The notes beneath the pieces were generated by a model. It worked only from the letters and a program-made list of their open reading frames with translations. It was not told where the DNA came from and made no database searches. From positions 1 to 38,414 of the IMG/VR virus record IMGVR_UViG_3300033144_006345: DNA of 38,414 nucleotides, one strand, 5' to 3'. Numbering within the stretch: position 1 is the first letter of the stretch; each line of letters opens with the position of its first letter. Of this stretch, positions 5,431 to 32,546 are shown piece by piece. The stretch comes from a virus. The position numbers and the translations under genes were made by a program.

Positions 5431-6132
5431 ATGTTAAGAATAGGATTGGGAATACCTTTTATTGACTCAATACCAGGAGAGGCCTTTGATTCTTTTCTGA
5501 ATGTTGCTTATGAAATAGGTAGAGTTGCTGACATCGTAATTATTACTCCAAATGGAATAATGCCGCACGATAATGCTCGTATTGCTGTTGCAGAGGTAGC
5601 AACGAAGAAGCAGTGCGACCTTTTAATGTTCGTAGATGCTGATACAGTTATTCCAGCAGGAGCGTTTTTAAGGTTGTTTCGCACGATGGTAAGAGAGAAA
5701 CCTGCTGTTGTAAGTGGCTATTACATAAGGCGAGGGTATCCTTGGACCTCGGTGTGGGCTAGTAAAGTTCCTGATCCTATTCTTGACATATCACCTCTTG
5801 TAGCTAATGTAGATGCTAAGACAGGTATCCATGTTATTAAATATACTGGTTTGGGCTGTGCTTTAATTGATTGGGTTTGGGTGCAGAAGAATCTATTAAA
5901 GCCCTATTTTCAGCATACCAAGAATGAGGTGCAGGGAGGGACAATCATAACAGATGATGTTACTTTCTATAAACAAATAGATGAAAGGCATGGTATTGTC
6001 TTAGGTGATGCTGATATAAGATGTGGTCATGTAGGACCAAGACAAGTTTACTGGGATAAGGATGCTACTAAACTTAGGGCTGAGGTTATAGAAAACGAAT
6101 TTTACTCGAAAAAGGAGAAAGAAAATGGATAA
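5431..6132 (+). CDS. Glycosyltransferase family 2-like (GT-A fold)
   Basis: This 233-residue protein has a Rossmann-like start (MLRIGLGIPFIDSI), an N-x-A-R/A helix (HDNARIAVAEVA), and the segment LLMFVDADTVIPAGAF. The DAD in that segment is the metal- and sugar-nucleotide-binding DxD motif of GT-A enzymes. A later TDDVTFYKQ could supply the acidic residue and a conserved His follows (CGHVG). Such enzymes transfer sugars from nucleotide donors. Here the acceptor is unknown; virion proteins or host surface glycans are possibilities. The gene is embedded between capsid and tail genes and overlaps the next gene by 8 bases, so it is probably expressed late. The neighbouring methyltransferase-like gene suggests the two act together. 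Confidence 0.7.
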   Translation: MLRIGLGIPFIDSIPGEAFDSFLNVAYEIGRVADIVIITPNGIMPHDNARIAVAEVATKKQCDLLMFVDADTVIPAGAFLRLFRTMVREKPAVVSGYYIRRGYPWTSVWASKVPDPILDISPLVANVDAKTGIHVIKYTGLGCALIDWVWVQKNLLKPYFQHTKNEVQGGTIITDDVTFYKQIDERHGIVLGDADIRCGHVGPRQVYWDKDATKLRAEVIENEFYSKKEKENG

Positions 6133-6664
6133 GTCTCAATACTGGATTTATGGAAGTCACTTACCTGCTTTGACGACTGCGATTTTTAAGACAGAAGGTA
6201 GGATACTTGAAATTGGAACGGGACATGCATCTACCCCGCTTTTTCATGAACTCACGAACGCAACTAAAAGATATGTCTTGAGCTTGGAAAGAAACGAAAA
6301 ATATTTATTAAATGCTGCCGTTCTGATAAAAGAGAATCATCAAATTAGACATTATCTAAGTGTTGAGCAAATCCTTCCTGTTATAAAAGATGGTGAAAGA
6401 TGGTCTATTGTCTTTGTAGACTGTGATGATTTTGAACTTGAGTTTGATAAGAAGGGACAGTGTCTTTATAAAGATAGAGTGCGTTTTATAGGTGCTTTAC
6501 GGACAATTACTGACATCATCGTTCTACATGATGTTGAAACACCTAACTTAGCTCCTTTAGTAAAGAAGTTTAAGTATAAGAAGATTTTTAAGTTTGAGGG
6601 TGTACCGGATACTGCTCTTCTAAGTGATACGATAGATTTTTCAGATAAAGAAAAGGAGAAATAA
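6125..6664 (+). CDS. Class I SAM-dependent methyltransferase-like protein
   Basis: The 179-residue product contains the Rossmann signature LEIGTGHAST (motif I, SAM binding) near residue 28. An acidic strand end, LSLERNEKY, suits motif II, WSIVFVDCDD suits motif IV, and DIIVLHDVE follows. These match class I methyltransferases of the group often paired with glycosyltransferases. The acceptor cannot be predicted; a sugar or a virion protein is possible because the gene overlaps the glycosyltransferase by 8 bases. The start ATG 6125 follows AAAAGGAGAAAGAAA. It is shorter than stand-alone DNA methyltransferases and lacks a target recognition domain, so a role in DNA methylation is unlikely. Confidence 0.65.
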   Translation: MDKSQYWIYGSHLPALTTAIFKTEGRILEIGTGHASTPLFHELTNATKRYVLSLERNEKYLLNAAVLIKENHQIRHYLSVEQILPVIKDGERWSIVFVDCDDFELEFDKKGQCLYKDRVRFIGALRTITDIIVLHDVETPNLAPLVKKFKYKKIFKFEGVPDTALLSDTIDFSDKEKEK

Positions 6665-8575: not shown

Positions 8576-10668
8576 TGAGAAGCAAAGGACTATTCATTCC
8601 AAGTGAAACAAAGTATCCCTTAATGGGATTGGATAGTTCATCTCCGTCTACTGCTTTAGACCCGAGGTTTAGTCCAAGTTGTAAGAATGTGTTCTTTGAG
8701 CAGGGTGTTGTTAAGAAGAGACTGGGGTATGTGGGTTTTGGCGCAGGGGATTTATTGTCAACAGTCACAGAACATCCTATAATTGGGCTAGTACAACATG
8801 AGGATACGGATGGTGATTTACATTTACTTGCAATAACAACGAGGGAGTTTTATAGGTACGATTCAGGGTCTGATGAATGGGTTTGTATTTCAGATGTTCT
8901 TACTTTAAGTAAATGTGAAGGTAAGACAGGTTGGACTGATCCGGGTGATAATATTACTCTCCATGATGAGGACGAGGAAACCATAGTAAAACTTGGGGAT
9001 ATGAATTTTAAGATTGCTGTTTGGGCTGATTTTGAAACGGGCGCTCTTGCTTATGTTAATGAGCATGCTGCTCCTTTGGATTTAACTGATGCTGTTGCAA
9101 TCTCTTTTTGGTTTAGGTCTAGTATTGCTTTGGGTGTTGGGAATGTCCAGTATGTTATAACGGAGAGTGAAACTTTTGAGAAAGCTCCAGAGGAAGGTTT
9201 TGCGGTTTTTGATATTCCTGCTTGTGATGCAAATACGTGGTATTACTTAACTTTAACTCCAAACGCTGAGGGTGAGTCAACATTTGCAAACTTAAATGCA
9301 GTCGAAAATCATGGATTTTGGGGTGCTGTTGATAAGGGAGAGTGTTTTCTTTACGTTTATAACATAAGTGCGAAGTCGTCTAGGTGGACAGGAGATAAGG
9401 ATGATGCTTTTACATCAGCTAGGCTATGGAGTGGGGCTAATCTCGATGTTACAGAAACCTTTATGTCAAATGGGAAGGATATACCTGTTCTTTGGAACAG
9501 TAGTGATGCTTATGTTACGGAGTTTAAAGTTCTTGATGTAGATGTTGATTATGTTAAATGTGTTGCTACTTTCATGGAGATGGCCATTGCTGCAAACTTT
9601 AGCGTGGATTCTGTTTATAACTCTCATGGTTTCGCTTGGAGTGATATTGGAGATATTACAAATTGGACAACTGGGGATTCAGGGGATGCTGATTTAACCG
9701 ACCTTGATGGTGAGATAGTTAGGCTTGAACCCCTAGGGGATAGGCTTGTTATATACTCAACAAATAGTATAATGACATGTGCTTATACAGGGAGTGAAGC
9801 TGTCTTTGCCTTTGACTTACGTATACATGATTCTCATTTGATATCAGGTAAGTCTGTTGTAAACTTGGGGCCTTATCACATCTTTGCATCTACTAACAAC
9901 TTCTTCCTCTTTGATGGGACACGGGGTATAAGGGAGATAGGTAGACCTATTGAGAAGGAATATATTAGTGATCTAGACCCTACGTATGCAAGCCGTAGCT
10001 TTGCTTATCATGACGTGCCTAGAAGAAGGGTTTACTTTTTTTATCCTCATTTAGGGTCAGGAGGGAAGATAACAAAGGCTTTTGTTCTCGATTATGACCT
10101 TACATCAGTGAGTAATTGGGTATGGTCAAAGTACTCTATGTCTAAAGACATACTATGTATGGCAGGGTTTCAGGGTTATTCAGCTTTGTTGTCATGGGAT
10201 AATTTAGCGGAGGGAGAAGGAACACCCTGGGAAACGTGGGATGGTCCTTGGTTGCATCCATCGGAGAAGGAAGGTTTCTTGACCTTAATAATTGGTTCGA
10301 CAGAAGGGGATGTATTCCTCCACGATGAGACAGAAAGAAATGATGATGGAGGGGTTATTGAATCGTTTTTTGAAACAAAAGATTTTACCGTCCCGCAGTC
10401 TTATAAGTCCTCTTACGGCAGGTGGATGGAATGTGAAATGGAGTTGAAGGGGGATTCTGTTGAGGTGTTTTACTCAACGGATGGGGGTGCTGGTTTTGTA
10501 AATATAATGTCATCGGATGACATTTTAAAAGATAAATGGAGATATATAAAGTATCAATTTGACGTTCATGCAAAGCAATTAAGGATAAAGGTGCAGAATA
10601 ATTCAACAACAGGAGGTTTTGAGTTAAGGAACATAAGGGTTTGGCTAAGGGAAGGAGCGCCGAGATGA
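8575..10668 (+). CDS. Tail tubular protein B/nozzle-like virion protein
   Basis: The product has 697 residues, close to the length of podovirus nozzle proteins such as T7 gp12 (about 790). It is beta-rich throughout with many aromatic, Asp and Gly residues. The opening region MGLDSSSPSTALDPRF with CKNVFFEQGVVKKRLGY is the N-terminal signature commonly seen in phage nozzle/stabilisation proteins, in which a surface loop and a first propeller blade are laid down. The segment LEPLGDRLVIYSTNSIM reads as a propeller strand pair. The gene follows the adaptor and fibre genes and starts in an overlapping TAATG. A nozzle role in short-tail assembly is inferred from order and composition. Confidence 0.65.
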   Translation: MRSKGLFIPSETKYPLMGLDSSSPSTALDPRFSPSCKNVFFEQGVVKKRLGYVGFGAGDLLSTVTEHPIIGLVQHEDTDGDLHLLAITTREFYRYDSGSDEWVCISDVLTLSKCEGKTGWTDPGDNITLHDEDEETIVKLGDMNFKIAVWADFETGALAYVNEHAAPLDLTDAVAISFWFRSSIALGVGNVQYVITESETFEKAPEEGFAVFDIPACDANTWYYLTLTPNAEGESTFANLNAVENHGFWGAVDKGECFLYVYNISAKSSRWTGDKDDAFTSARLWSGANLDVTETFMSNGKDIPVLWNSSDAYVTEFKVLDVDVDYVKCVATFMEMAIAANFSVDSVYNSHGFAWSDIGDITNWTTGDSGDADLTDLDGEIVRLEPLGDRLVIYSTNSIMTCAYTGSEAVFAFDLRIHDSHLISGKSVVNLGPYHIFASTNNFFLFDGTRGIREIGRPIEKEYISDLDPTYASRSFAYHDVPRRRVYFFYPHLGSGGKITKAFVLDYDLTSVSNWVWSKYSMSKDILCMAGFQGYSALLSWDNLAEGEGTPWETWDGPWLHPSEKEGFLTLIIGSTEGDVFLHDETERNDDGGVIESFFETKDFTVPQSYKSSYGRWMECEMELKGDSVEVFYSTDGGAGFVNIMSSDDILKDKWRYIKYQFDVHAKQLRIKVQNNSTTGGFELRNIRVWLREGAPR

Positions 10669-30897: not shown

Positions 30898-31244
30898 TGG
30901 TGGAGGCGGTGGGAATCGAACCCACGTCCTGTAATATTTCAGCAAGTGATTCTACGTGTGTAGTCAGTTGTTTTCGATCTCTGTCGGTCAACTAACAAAC
31001 CTCAACGTCCTTTAATACGCCATAAGGCTCATCTGATTATAGTGTCAGAACCCGGCACACTTTTTTTACCTGCTGTTATAGACATGAACAATAGCAGGTG
31101 TCTTGCTCTGTCCACCGCTTTTACGCTGCGGCTCGCATTGGAGTGTTATTAGCACTTAAAATCATGAGTCAGTTTTACGAGATCAGCCTCATTCTCGACA
31201 CGCTACAGTTTGCTTCGATTATCCAGTCGATGCCATTCGCCCCC
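30898..31244 (-). ncRNA. ssrA: Phage-encoded tmRNA (transfer-messenger RNA)
   Basis: The transcript starts GGGGGCGAATGGCATCGAC, and this acceptor strand pairs with CGCCTCC before the encoded ACCA end (GTGGGTTCGATTCCCACC forms the T arm). Further hallmarks are GTCGAG...CTCGT of pseudoknot 1, a tag frame, and the segment GTTTGTTAGTTGACC near the 3' half as in other tmRNAs. The 347-nt length is normal. The tag frame at 31153-31121 is GCT AAT AAC ACT CCA ATG CGA GCC GCA GCG TAA, giving ANNTPMRAAA. tmRNA rescues stalled ribosomes with SmpB, which is presumably the host's. No promoter of its own is visible, so it is probably processed from a longer RNA. A short ORF track read across its 3' end ('GSIPTAST') is a translation artefact. 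Confidence 0.95.
31121..31153 (-). other. tmRNA tag-peptide reading frame (ANNTPMRAAA)
   Basis: Ten codons and a TAA follow the resume codon GCT at 31153-31151. After the Ala from the tmRNA itself, the ribosome would add A-N-N-T-P-M-R-A-A-A. The common ending is (L/V)AA; here Arg precedes AAA and the usual hydrophobic residue at the third position from the end is absent. AAGT just before GCT corresponds to the alanine resume context of bacterial tmRNAs. Confidence 0.85.
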
Positions 31245-31261: not shown

Positions 31262-31321
31262 TCACCTTCCGACTTCGGGTATCCCGTGATGTATCCCCGG
31301 CTCAGGCCAGTTACTTTTCAT
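31262..31321 (-). CDS. 19-residue micropeptide B, paralogue of micropeptide A
   Basis: ATG 31321 to TGA 31262 encodes MKSNWPEPGIHHGIPEVGR. The ATG overlaps the TGA of the 90-residue gene upstream (ATGA), and GGGGGCGAGAAAAA precedes it as a binding site. A closely similar peptide is encoded at 31689-31630. The two differ at six codons only by synonymous third-base changes (GAA/GAG, CCT/CCG, GGA/GGG, ATC/ATA, CAC/CAT, GGT/GGA) and at four codons by amino acid. That excess of silent change is evidence that this frame is translated. The Trp-Pro-x-Pro-Gly-Ile-His core is unknown to me. It ends 18 bases before the tmRNA. Confidence 0.65.
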   Translation of the reverse strand: MKSNWPEPGIHHGIPEVGR

Positions 31322-31590
31322 TTTTTCTCGCCCCCTACTCCCACACCCCCTGTTGCAATATCTTTCAAAACATTGTTCGGGGCAGAAGAAGATTCGTCTT
31401 TCTTTACCGGGGGATACATCACCGACTTTAACATAGAATCAGCTAGTTGTGAGAGTTGTTCAGGGGTGAAAATCAGGATCATTTCGTTGCCGTCGGTAGT
31501 CAGCTTTAGTGTGTAGACGTGCAGTTGGGGATCATACTCAGTTTTGACGACCAGTTCCTTTGTAAGCTCGTAGAATGAAAGTGAACGCAT
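31318..31590 (-). CDS. Small protein of module B, unknown
   Basis: The product has 90 residues from ATG 31590, after AGGAGAGAGTAAA; the earlier in-frame start at 31623 has no binding site. The first 60 residues read as a small beta-alpha domain (VKTEYDPQLHVYTLKLTTDG, EMILIFTPEQLSQLADSML). The end is a Ser/Gly-rich tail, VGVGGEKK. The TEQ-type 'T-P-E-Q-L-x-Q-L-A' helix resembles other short phage proteins. Its stop overlaps the start of micropeptide B, so translation is probably coupled. The function is unknown. Confidence 0.65.
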   Translation of the reverse strand: MRSLSFYELTKELVVKTEYDPQLHVYTLKLTTDGNEMILIFTPEQLSQLADSMLKSVMYPPVKKDESSSAPNNVLKDIATGGVGVGGEKK

Positions 31591-31629
31591 TTTACTCTCT
31601 CCTAAAAAAGTTATATTCTTCAATATTCC

Positions 31630-31689
31630 TCAAATACCGGCGGCGGGTATCCCGATGTGGATTCCAGGTTCAGGCCAGTTACTTTTCAC
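31630..31689 (-). CDS. 19-residue micropeptide A, paralogue of micropeptide B
   Basis: GTG 31689 to TGA 31630 encodes MKSNWPEPGIHIGIPAAGI (first codon GTG). The GTG overlaps the TGA of the 48-residue ORF upstream (GTGA), with GGGGGAGGCGAAAAA as binding site in that ORF's last codons. The first eight codons after the start and four later codons code the same residues as micropeptide B. The shared upstream G-rich binding site and stop-start overlap make the two modules true duplicates. No signal peptide or membrane segment is seen. The function is unknown. Confidence 0.6.
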   Translation of the reverse strand: MKSNWPEPGIHIGIPAAGI

Positions 31690-31832
31690 TTTTTCGCCTC
31701 CCCCGGATAGTAAACCAGATCATCTTCCATCATCGTTCGAAGTTTGTCCGTCGGCCGCCCCCATTTGGCTATAGCCAGGCTTGTCTGTGCGGTATCGAGC
31801 CTTTGTTTTGCAAGATTAAGTAATCCTGCCAC
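31686..31832 (-). CDS. 48-residue ORF of module A (possible gene overlapping RNA structure)
   Basis: GTG 31832 to TGA 31686 encodes 48 residues, beginning AGLLNLAKQRLDTAQTSLA and ending DDLVYYPGEAKK. The Ala/Leu/Lys helix pattern and the ordered end look protein-like. However, no ribosome binding site is seen, and an in-frame TTG (31841) is also possible. The same DNA holds a perfect 10-bp inverted repeat (31832-31841 with 31744-31753) and internal hairpins, so it may instead be, or also be, an extension of the large RNA. The stop overlaps the start of micropeptide A. The two readings cannot be separated by eye. Confidence 0.4.
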   Translation of the reverse strand: MAGLLNLAKQRLDTAQTSLAIAKWGRPTDKLRTMMEDDLVYYPGEAKK

Positions 31833-31841
31833 GACGGACAA
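31744..31841 (-). ncRNA. Possible additional RNA domain closed by a 10-bp helix
   Basis: On the minus strand TTGTCCGTCG (31841-31832) is perfectly complementary to CGACGGACAA (31753-31744). Between them GCAGGATT/AATCTTGC (8 bp with one G-U, ACTT loop) and TGGCTATAGCCA (palindromic hairpin) can form. The domain lies 5 bases after the U tract of the large RNA. It could be a last domain of that RNA, in which case the U tract would be a linker, or a separate structure over the 48-residue ORF. Confidence 0.4.
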
Positions 31842-31846
31842 TTTTC

Positions 31847-31976
31847 AAAAAAGCTGCCTGGCCGGGCTCGAAACCGACTTCGTGCTTTCTTCCCGTAACG
31901 CAATAGGCCGGGCTGTACAGTCTTGCACGATCTTCCTATTACACAAGTGCGTTTCCTTCAACGCTGCAGGCAGCTT
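31847..31976 (-). terminator. Terminal helix and U tract of the large RNA
   Basis: AAGCTGCCTG (31976-31967) pairs perfectly with CAGGCAGCTT (31860-31851), and the sequence continues into a run of six T (31852-31847). It reads as an intrinsic terminator with a large internal structured loop of about 105 nt. It closes the last domain of the large RNA. Read-through would be needed for the downstream micropeptide modules and tmRNA unless they have their own promoter. Confidence 0.55.
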
Positions 31977-31989
31977 ATTGTCAAAGAAA
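31977..31989 (-). repeat. Internal motif CTTTGACAAT, copy 3 of large RNA
   Basis: The sequence TTTCTTTGACAATAA on the minus strand repeats the motif of copies 1 and 2 (32428-32441 and 32226-32238). Each copy immediately follows the 3' strand of a domain-closing helix; here that strand is CCGTCCC at 31996-31990. Confidence 0.6.
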
Positions 31990-32225
31990 GGGACGGGATT
32001 TCATCTTATTTGTACTTAATTTTTCGTACAAATTATGGGCCTGTTCCGTGTGCCATCACGTCTATCCGTCCCTAAGTTTTTAAAGTAAGGGGCAACCGCT
32101 TGCCTATTTCCGCACCTTATTTATCACATGTGACCCGGCTAACTCATAGTAGCGGGGTAGGCTGGCCGGTGAGCAGGACTTCGACGGCCATTTAACAGAT
32201 GCGCAACGGCTGCCCCAATTTTTCG

Positions 32226-32238
32226 AATTGTCAAAGAA
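32226..32238 (-). repeat. Internal motif CTTTGACAAT, copy 2 of large RNA
   Basis: The sequence TTTCTTTGACAATT follows CACATCAT (32249-32242), the 3' strand of the long-range 8-bp helix. It matches copy 3 in ten consecutive bases and copy 1 except for one C/T difference. Confidence 0.6.
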
Positions 32239-32427
32239 AAGATGATGTGTCCGTTTCTCAACGGAAGGCTTTTATATTATGGCTTTTCAAATTAATGCAT
32301 ACTTTCGGTTTCCCTGGCATTACGACCGTGTTATTGCTCCTAAACAATAACAGATTATCTGCGAATAGCCAATCCGCTGGAGCTTTCAATAACGAGCGTC
32401 CTCGTATACCCGCTCCGCACATCATTT

Positions 32428-32441
32428 AATTATCAAAGAGA
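32428..32441 (-). repeat. Internal motif CTTTGATAAT, copy 1 of large RNA
   Basis: The sequence TCTCTTTGATAATT follows CGCC (32446-32443), the 3' strand of the first closing helix. Together with the other two copies it marks three equivalent positions between domains. Confidence 0.55.
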
Positions 32442-32515
32442 CGGCGTTGATCCTGATATATCACAAAGTGCCTGAATTGTCCTGACAGGCACACCGCCAC
32501 CTAGTTTAAAAGAAC

Positions 32516-32521
32516 ATTATA
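32516..32521 (-). promoter_or_regulatory. -10 box TATAAT ahead of the large RNA
   Basis: A perfect TATAAT on the minus strand is placed so that transcription would start at about 32508, just before the first helix. No strong -35 box is at 17 bases (ACAATT); a TTGTTA exists but with only a 12-base spacer. The element could need an activator or an extended contact, or be phage sigma dependent. The large RNA is otherwise downstream of the sigma-like gene and could be read from it. Confidence 0.5.
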
Positions 32522-32533
32522 CCCCATCCTTTT

Positions 32534-32546
32534 TAACAAATTGTTA
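32534..32546. promoter_or_regulatory. 13-bp palindrome over the -35 region
   Basis: TAACAAATTGTTA is a perfect inverted repeat with a single central base. It overlaps the stop codon of the sigma-like gene and the place where a -35 box would be read for the TATAAT at 32521-32516. Its position is typical of an operator controlling the large RNA. Confidence 0.4.

Follow-up and report, generated by a model that had tools for sequence, protein, structure and literature searches.

Phage-borne tmRNA genes are already known as such. Of 18,146 phage genomes, 402 were reported to carry ssrA (PMC9004378), and the first-pass annotation of the DNA described here thus overstated the rarity of phage tmRNAs; the current tmRNA database is reported to hold 79 unique bacteriophage sequences (PMC11915505). 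Examples of phage ssrA are described from mycobacteriophages, including Bxz1 and Wildcat as well as others, and from Bacillus phage G (PMC4131195). In the case of phage Melnitz, the tmRNA is in two pieces and lies under a glutamine riboswitch in a phage of 141.5 kb (PMC9004378). Mycobacteriophage DS6A is described as encoding a tmRNA derivative without the mRNA-like part, a part that is present in the tmRNA described here. Among bacterial tmRNAs, those of Phycisphaerae-type Planctomycetota are the most relevant for comparison, with tags such as AEYPMAMAA, GNSQLRMAA, AENNAPLRMAA, and ...NQPMRMAA.

The stretch of DNA analysed here (the window, 38,414 bases) is an entire IMG/VR virus record, 38.4 kb in length and classed as linear, and it contains an intact ssrA in what is otherwise a phage genome, that of a small tailed phage with no source other than metagenome data. 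In this it is like the complete phage-borne genes of Melnitz, Bxz1, Wildcat, and phage G (PMC9004378, PMC4131195), but unlike that of Melnitz it is in one piece, is of planctomycete type, and lies in a 38-kb record without tRNAs. It is a new example of a phage-carried tmRNA and not a new system. A planctomycete-type tmRNA in so compact a record, with no tRNAs, nevertheless widens the range of phage tmRNAs; among the literature matches listed, no title concerned a planctomycete phage tmRNA, which is weak negative evidence. The gene is an intact, phage-encoded, one-piece tmRNA, probably of Phycisphaerae-type planctomycete descent and long resident in the phage, where it has diverged to about 60% identity, and it probably aids the recycling of stalled ribosomes.

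The tmRNA gene and the phage that carries it

A single tmRNA was identified in the window by ARAGORN, at 30898–31244 on the minus strand, together with no tRNA genes. The tag, ANNTPMRAAA followed by a stop, is as read in the first-pass annotation, which had left out the strand. The same coordinates give a full-length match to RF00023 (positions 1–374) in Rfam, with a score of 141.4 bits against the curated cut-off of 47 and an E value of 1.4e-55, which excludes chance as an explanation of the match. The gene is 347 nt, complete, and in one piece, with the 3' CCA encoded (the end is ACCA). It has the alanine-type acceptor with G3-U70, the resume codon, the stop codon, the Ala-Ala-type tag end, helix 2, and the pseudoknots of the standard form of RF00023.

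The features of the gene, all on the minus strand, can be placed in some detail. The 5' part of the tRNA-like domain (31199–31244) carries the acceptor 5' strand with G3, the helix-2 5' strand, and the tip GCGUGU, while the 3' part (30898–30960) carries the helix-2 tip ACACGU, the T-arm, the acceptor 3' strand with U70, and CCA. Within these, 7 of 7 acceptor pairs, including G3-U70, 5 of 5 T-stem pairs, and 6 of 6 pairs of the helix-2 tip are present in the window copy. Pseudoknot 1 (31164–31197) has stems CGAGA/UCUCG and AUGAG/CUCAU, with all 10 pairs formed. The tag reading frame, from the resume codon GCU to the UAA stop, is at gene positions 92–124 (31121–31153), with the stop codon closed by helix 5 (CCGC/GCGG, 31115–31131), which also pairs. 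The hairpin of PK2 has 7 of 7 pairs, and PK3 and PK4 are predicted, having been folded as segments only.

The phage tmRNA was compared with 18 relatives to which it is only about 60% identical. Stem 1 of pseudoknot 1 is paired in 85 of 85 cells of this comparison and the T-stem in 90 of 90, with 31 and 15 two-sided changes, respectively; for the helix-2 tip the figures are 105 of 108 cells and 23 such changes. The acceptor stem is paired in 107 of 119 cells, with one two-sided change. Stem 2 of pseudoknot 1 is paired in 32 of 80 cells and adds no support, the low figure in the relatives being probably due to an offset in the alignment. The phage tmRNA is not degenerate, as its stems pair, with compensatory changes relative to its relatives, and the retention of pairing in spite of this divergence indicates that there has been selection on it as an RNA. 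As a single strand, the tmRNA folds only mildly better than shuffled sequences do (z -2.03, equalled by 4 of 100 shuffles), a result that is unremarkable for an RNA with pseudoknots.

That the gene is phage-encoded is supported by the other genes of the same record. Protein-family matches identify a portal, a major head protein, and a virion structural protein, along with a family-A DNA polymerase (PolA), a primase/helicase, a Sak4-like annealing protein, and an exonuclease; there is also a ParB-methyltransferase fusion and a sigma-factor-like protein. Together with the ARAGORN and Rfam results, these genes bear out the first reading of this locus as a complete, phage-borne tmRNA with an encoded CCA end. 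Among the families found in the proteins scanned from the record, there is no match to SmpB and none to an integrase. Nor was a large terminase matched among these proteins, which would suggest that one end of the record is probably absent. In the structural gene block, two frames on the plus strand (5431–6132 and 6125–6664) have starts that appear by eye to be glycosyltransferase-like and methyltransferase-like, with no matches to Pfam.

The nearest annotated phage record, judged by the polymerase, is MW202489 (31.6% identity, with a head-protein match of 24% as well), which has no tmRNA and no tRNA. No matches to the tmRNA were found by blastn in 50,697 phage records. When viral contigs were searched with the polymerase as a single protein, 11 pattern stretches were returned, none of them from relatives; the search was then made with a six-sequence alignment. 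This identified 80 viral loci with a related polymerase, the best of them 40% identical, of which 53 extend far enough upstream (6.1 kb or more) to cover the position corresponding to the tmRNA. No believable tmRNA was found by ARAGORN in any of the 53, and no RF00023 match in the seven closest polymerase-related loci checked, so the gene is not a shared feature of this larger group of phages. A 686-nt 'permuted' tmRNA call in one polymerase relative (L131), with a tag that does not end in AA, was set aside as a false positive.

Lineage of the tmRNA

A 24-base pattern from the 5' end of the phage tmRNA, scanned over 84,980 species genomes, matched 24 stretches. By title, 19 of these are from Planctomycetota or its named subgroups, with 3 from Saprospirales/Saprospiraceae and 1 each from Syntrophaceae and Cloacimonadota; ARAGORN found a tmRNA in 17 of the 24 loci. 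Profiles were also compared, each built from 15 sequences and that of the Planctomycetota in six draws. The phage tmRNA is scored at 87–108 bits by the Planctomycetota profiles, against 47–60 bits for Bacteroidota, 62–67 for Desulfobacterota, and 39–42 for Cloacimonadota, although mixed profiles of viral one-piece tmRNAs also give good scores (58–87 bits). In a control of the method, held-out sequences were placed correctly in 8 of 8 cases for the planctomycetes and in 5 of 8, 8 of 8, and 6 of 8 for the other groups.

A maximum-likelihood tree of 120 rows was made with the window copy, 55 of the 150 planctomycete tmRNAs, 33 of the 60 tmRNAs sampled in the other three phyla, and, of 35 one-piece tmRNAs from viruses, 31 (tags shorter than 17 aa and ending in AA). 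The phage tmRNA groups there with 25 planctomycete tmRNAs and a single other viral row (L046), making a set of 27 rows. Support for this set is 82/95, under the star level of the tool, and the branch leading to the phage tmRNA is long (0.88). Both profiles and tree thus group the gene with planctomycete tmRNAs rather than with those of the three other sampled phyla. The best identity in the tree alignment is 58%, to a tmRNA titled Phycisphaerae (L161), which, with the planctomycete grouping, argues for a planctomycete-type gene that is not a recent copy.

From these sequence comparisons, the closest kin of the phage tmRNA appear to be the Phycisphaerae-type tmRNAs of the Planctomycetota. It shares with them the one-piece form, the 5' end pattern, the Pro-Met and the Arg at -4 of the tag, and for most of them the same clade of the tree; it differs in being about 60% identical and in having Ala at -3. 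The viral row in the clade (IMGVR_UViG_3300046467_001609, 9835–10206, tag GNTQLAMAA) is likewise a planctomycete-type phage tmRNA, but it has tail-sheath genes, indicating an unrelated phage, and the ordinary Met at -3.

The tmRNA, taken by itself, would suggest that the phage infects planctomycetes, and its lineage could serve as a clue to the host for a virus group that otherwise has none. The major head protein has a weak match in only one of 392 Planctomycetota genomes (28% identity, E 5e-8).

If the gene functions as an ordinary tmRNA, it would be transcribed together with the leftward genes and matured by host RNases. Charging with alanine would be through G3-U70 by the host alanyl-tRNA synthetase, and binding would be by host SmpB, no phage gene for this protein having been found. 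Trans-translation would then add A-ANNTPMRAAA onto stalled nascent chains in the usual manner, and the likely gain for the phage would be the recycling of ribosomes while infection yields broken mRNAs.

The tag and its degradation signal

Nearly all of the Planctomycetota genomes (384 of 392) give a match to RF00023. For the survey of tags, 191 loci were read, of which 172 have a tmRNA and 150 of these are distinct, in a sample that is biased to high-scoring tmRNAs. The residue at -3 in the 150 is Leu in 93, Met in 52, Tyr in 3, and Phe in 2, followed by Ala-Ala; Ala at -3, as in the phage tag, is not seen. Arg at -4, on the other hand, is present in 18 of the 150, and Pro-Met in 24, two of which end QPMRMAA. 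The tmRNAs compared from other phyla, 26 of them from Bacteroidota, 19 from Desulfobacterota, and 15 from Cloacimonadota, have no Arg at -4. A single one of these 60 has Ala at -3, a Desulfobacterota tag ending ATA, and none ends AAA. In the viral survey, 172 loci were read, 129 with a tmRNA. They give 87 different tags, and AA is the ending of 79; among these 79, Arg is at -4 in 8 and Ala is at -3 in 1, the tag AANDSTFEEVRAAA of L033.

The first-pass annotation had regarded both the Arg ahead of the final AAA and the lack of a hydrophobic residue before Ala-Ala as unusual, and had proposed that a phage copy might change the fate of tagged proteins. It is upheld in part, for the full phage tmRNA and for the residue at -3, where Ala replaces the usual Leu or Met; it is not upheld on the Arg, which occurs often enough in planctomycete and viral tags, nor on rarity or on the fate of tagged proteins. 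The tag comparison would make Arg at -4 and Pro-Met features of the planctomycete lineage, which corrects the view of the Arg as abnormal, and leave Ala at -3 as the true oddity. Indeed, planctomycete-type descent explains most of the apparent unusualness of the tag. One planctomycete subclade (with loci such as L154, L325, L228, and L259) has long tags of 18–22 residues, of the form ...GRIGF...P(A/V/M)R(L/M)AA.

The codons at the end of the phage tag are CCA ATG CGA GCC GCA GCG TAA, compared with CCA ATG GCA ATG GCT GCT TAA in relatives. The codon at -3 differs at all three bases and therefore a single sequencing error is no explanation. In 294 Planctomycetota genomes, the pattern PMRAAA-stop has 24 matches, and in none of 10 loci examined was a tmRNA found by ARAGORN.

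In Escherichia coli, most of the signal for ClpXP is reported to be carried by the final Ala-Ala, whereas a change at -3 causes no more than a modest rise in KM (Fei et al. 2020, PMC7652416, citing Flynn et al. 2001). GFP with AAV or ASV ends is described as more stable than with LAA or LVA (PMC9097571), but the AAV tag also alters the last residue, unlike the phage tag in which Ala-Ala is kept. Because Ala-Ala is kept, the phage tag should still work as a degron. With Ala rather than Leu or Met at -3, it is expected by analogy to be a weaker one than that of the host, without the fate of tagged proteins being reversed, and the proposed change of fate was in that respect overstated.

It is nonetheless conceivable, if unlikely, that the Ala at -3 has been selected because it weakens or redirects proteolysis, such that ribosomes are rescued while the tagged products are spared or destroyed slowly, in competition with the host tmRNA. 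The absence of this residue from the planctomycete tags and of any AAA end from those of the other phyla would fit with this, as would the three substitutions needed to go from ATG to GCC relative to the PMAMAA relatives. The tmRNA of L033 (9746–10151) is the sole other AAA-ending case among the 79 AA-ending viral tags and likewise ends Arg-Ala-Ala-Ala, in a phage tmRNA that is permuted (two-piece) and of unrelated lineage. The main ClpXP determinant has been kept, however, and the effect at -3 reported from E. coli is modest. Tags ending RAAA are 2 of 80 in phage against 0 of 210 in bacteria (p about 0.075), an excess that is suggestive only, and drift in a diverging copy explains Ala at -3 equally well. 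The existence of a natural variant with Ala at -3 makes it testable whether proteolysis is altered by phage tmRNAs or ribosomes are only rescued.

The upstream leader and the origin of the gene

Upstream of the tmRNA on the same strand is a non-coding leader of 836 nt (31705–32540, minus strand), which contains no convincing genes and is strongly folded (z -4.56, with none of 20 shuffles as stable). An Rfam comparison yields no meaningful score other than that of the adjacent tmRNA, and the leader has no matches in phage DNA. There are three boxA-like motifs in the leader, all on the minus strand, one being TTTGATAAT (32429–32437) and the other two TTTGACAAT (32227–32235 and 31977–31985). The pattern TTTGAYAAT occurs three times, compared with a single-strand expectation of about 0.018 for the leader (P about 1e-6), for a motif that was chosen after the fact. 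The sequence TCTTTGACAA is present in two of the leader motifs and also upstream of 16S-rRNA matches in two planctomycete loci (L529, L532), while a third (L530) has a closely similar sequence. We take this sequence, upstream of planctomycete 16S rRNA, to be the rrn boxA antitermination site. The leader is possibly a processive-antitermination leader or else a new large structured RNA. By its position it may be tied to expression of the tmRNA, and a boxA-like leader would suit an operon with an untranslated stable RNA.

Slightly less likely again than selection on the -3 residue is a wider reading in which phages repurpose trans-translation through the degron, rewritten here from a hydrophobic residue to Ala at -3 for rescue without rapid destruction, L033 (VRAAA) being a second case and an rrn-like boxA antitermination leader lying ahead of the gene. 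If so, the starting point in the host would have been a tag such as ...PMRMAA, and the leader would let the phage make an abundant, stable, untranslated RNA.

That a host ssrA was picked up recently and by accident, and has no function in the phage, whether by imprecise excision of a prophage from an ssrA att site or by transduction, is very improbable compared with the long-resident gene favoured here. It is true that phages are known to integrate at ssrA and that ssrA fragments in prophages are ascribed to imprecise excision (PMC9004378), but the gene is full-length and not a 3' fragment of the kind that would lie beside an integrase, for which there was no match among the families found in the proteins scanned. 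The best identity in the tree alignment is low for a recent copy, and compensatory change has preserved the paired stems. The first-pass annotation had named an identical tag in a host as the sign of such a capture; the exact tag is present in none of the 84,980 species genomes and in no viral contig, which argues against a fresh, unchanged capture. Least credible of all is a decoy that titrates host SmpB in the manner of the DS6A RNA, which consists of the tRNA-like domain only and is reported to inhibit tmRNA (PMC4131195, PMC11915505), as the mRNA-like domain is present in the window copy with its tag frame, resume codon, helix 5, and pseudoknots.

Between the leader and the tmRNA, on the minus strand, there are two copies of a 20-codon frame (31262–31321 and 31630–31689), with the sequence (M/V)KSNWPEPGIHxGIP.... 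The frame at 31262–31321 overlaps the end of a 101-aa gene (31318–31623) and is just upstream of the tmRNA. The two copies have 14 base differences, 8 of which are at third codon positions, and these frames could be microproteins.
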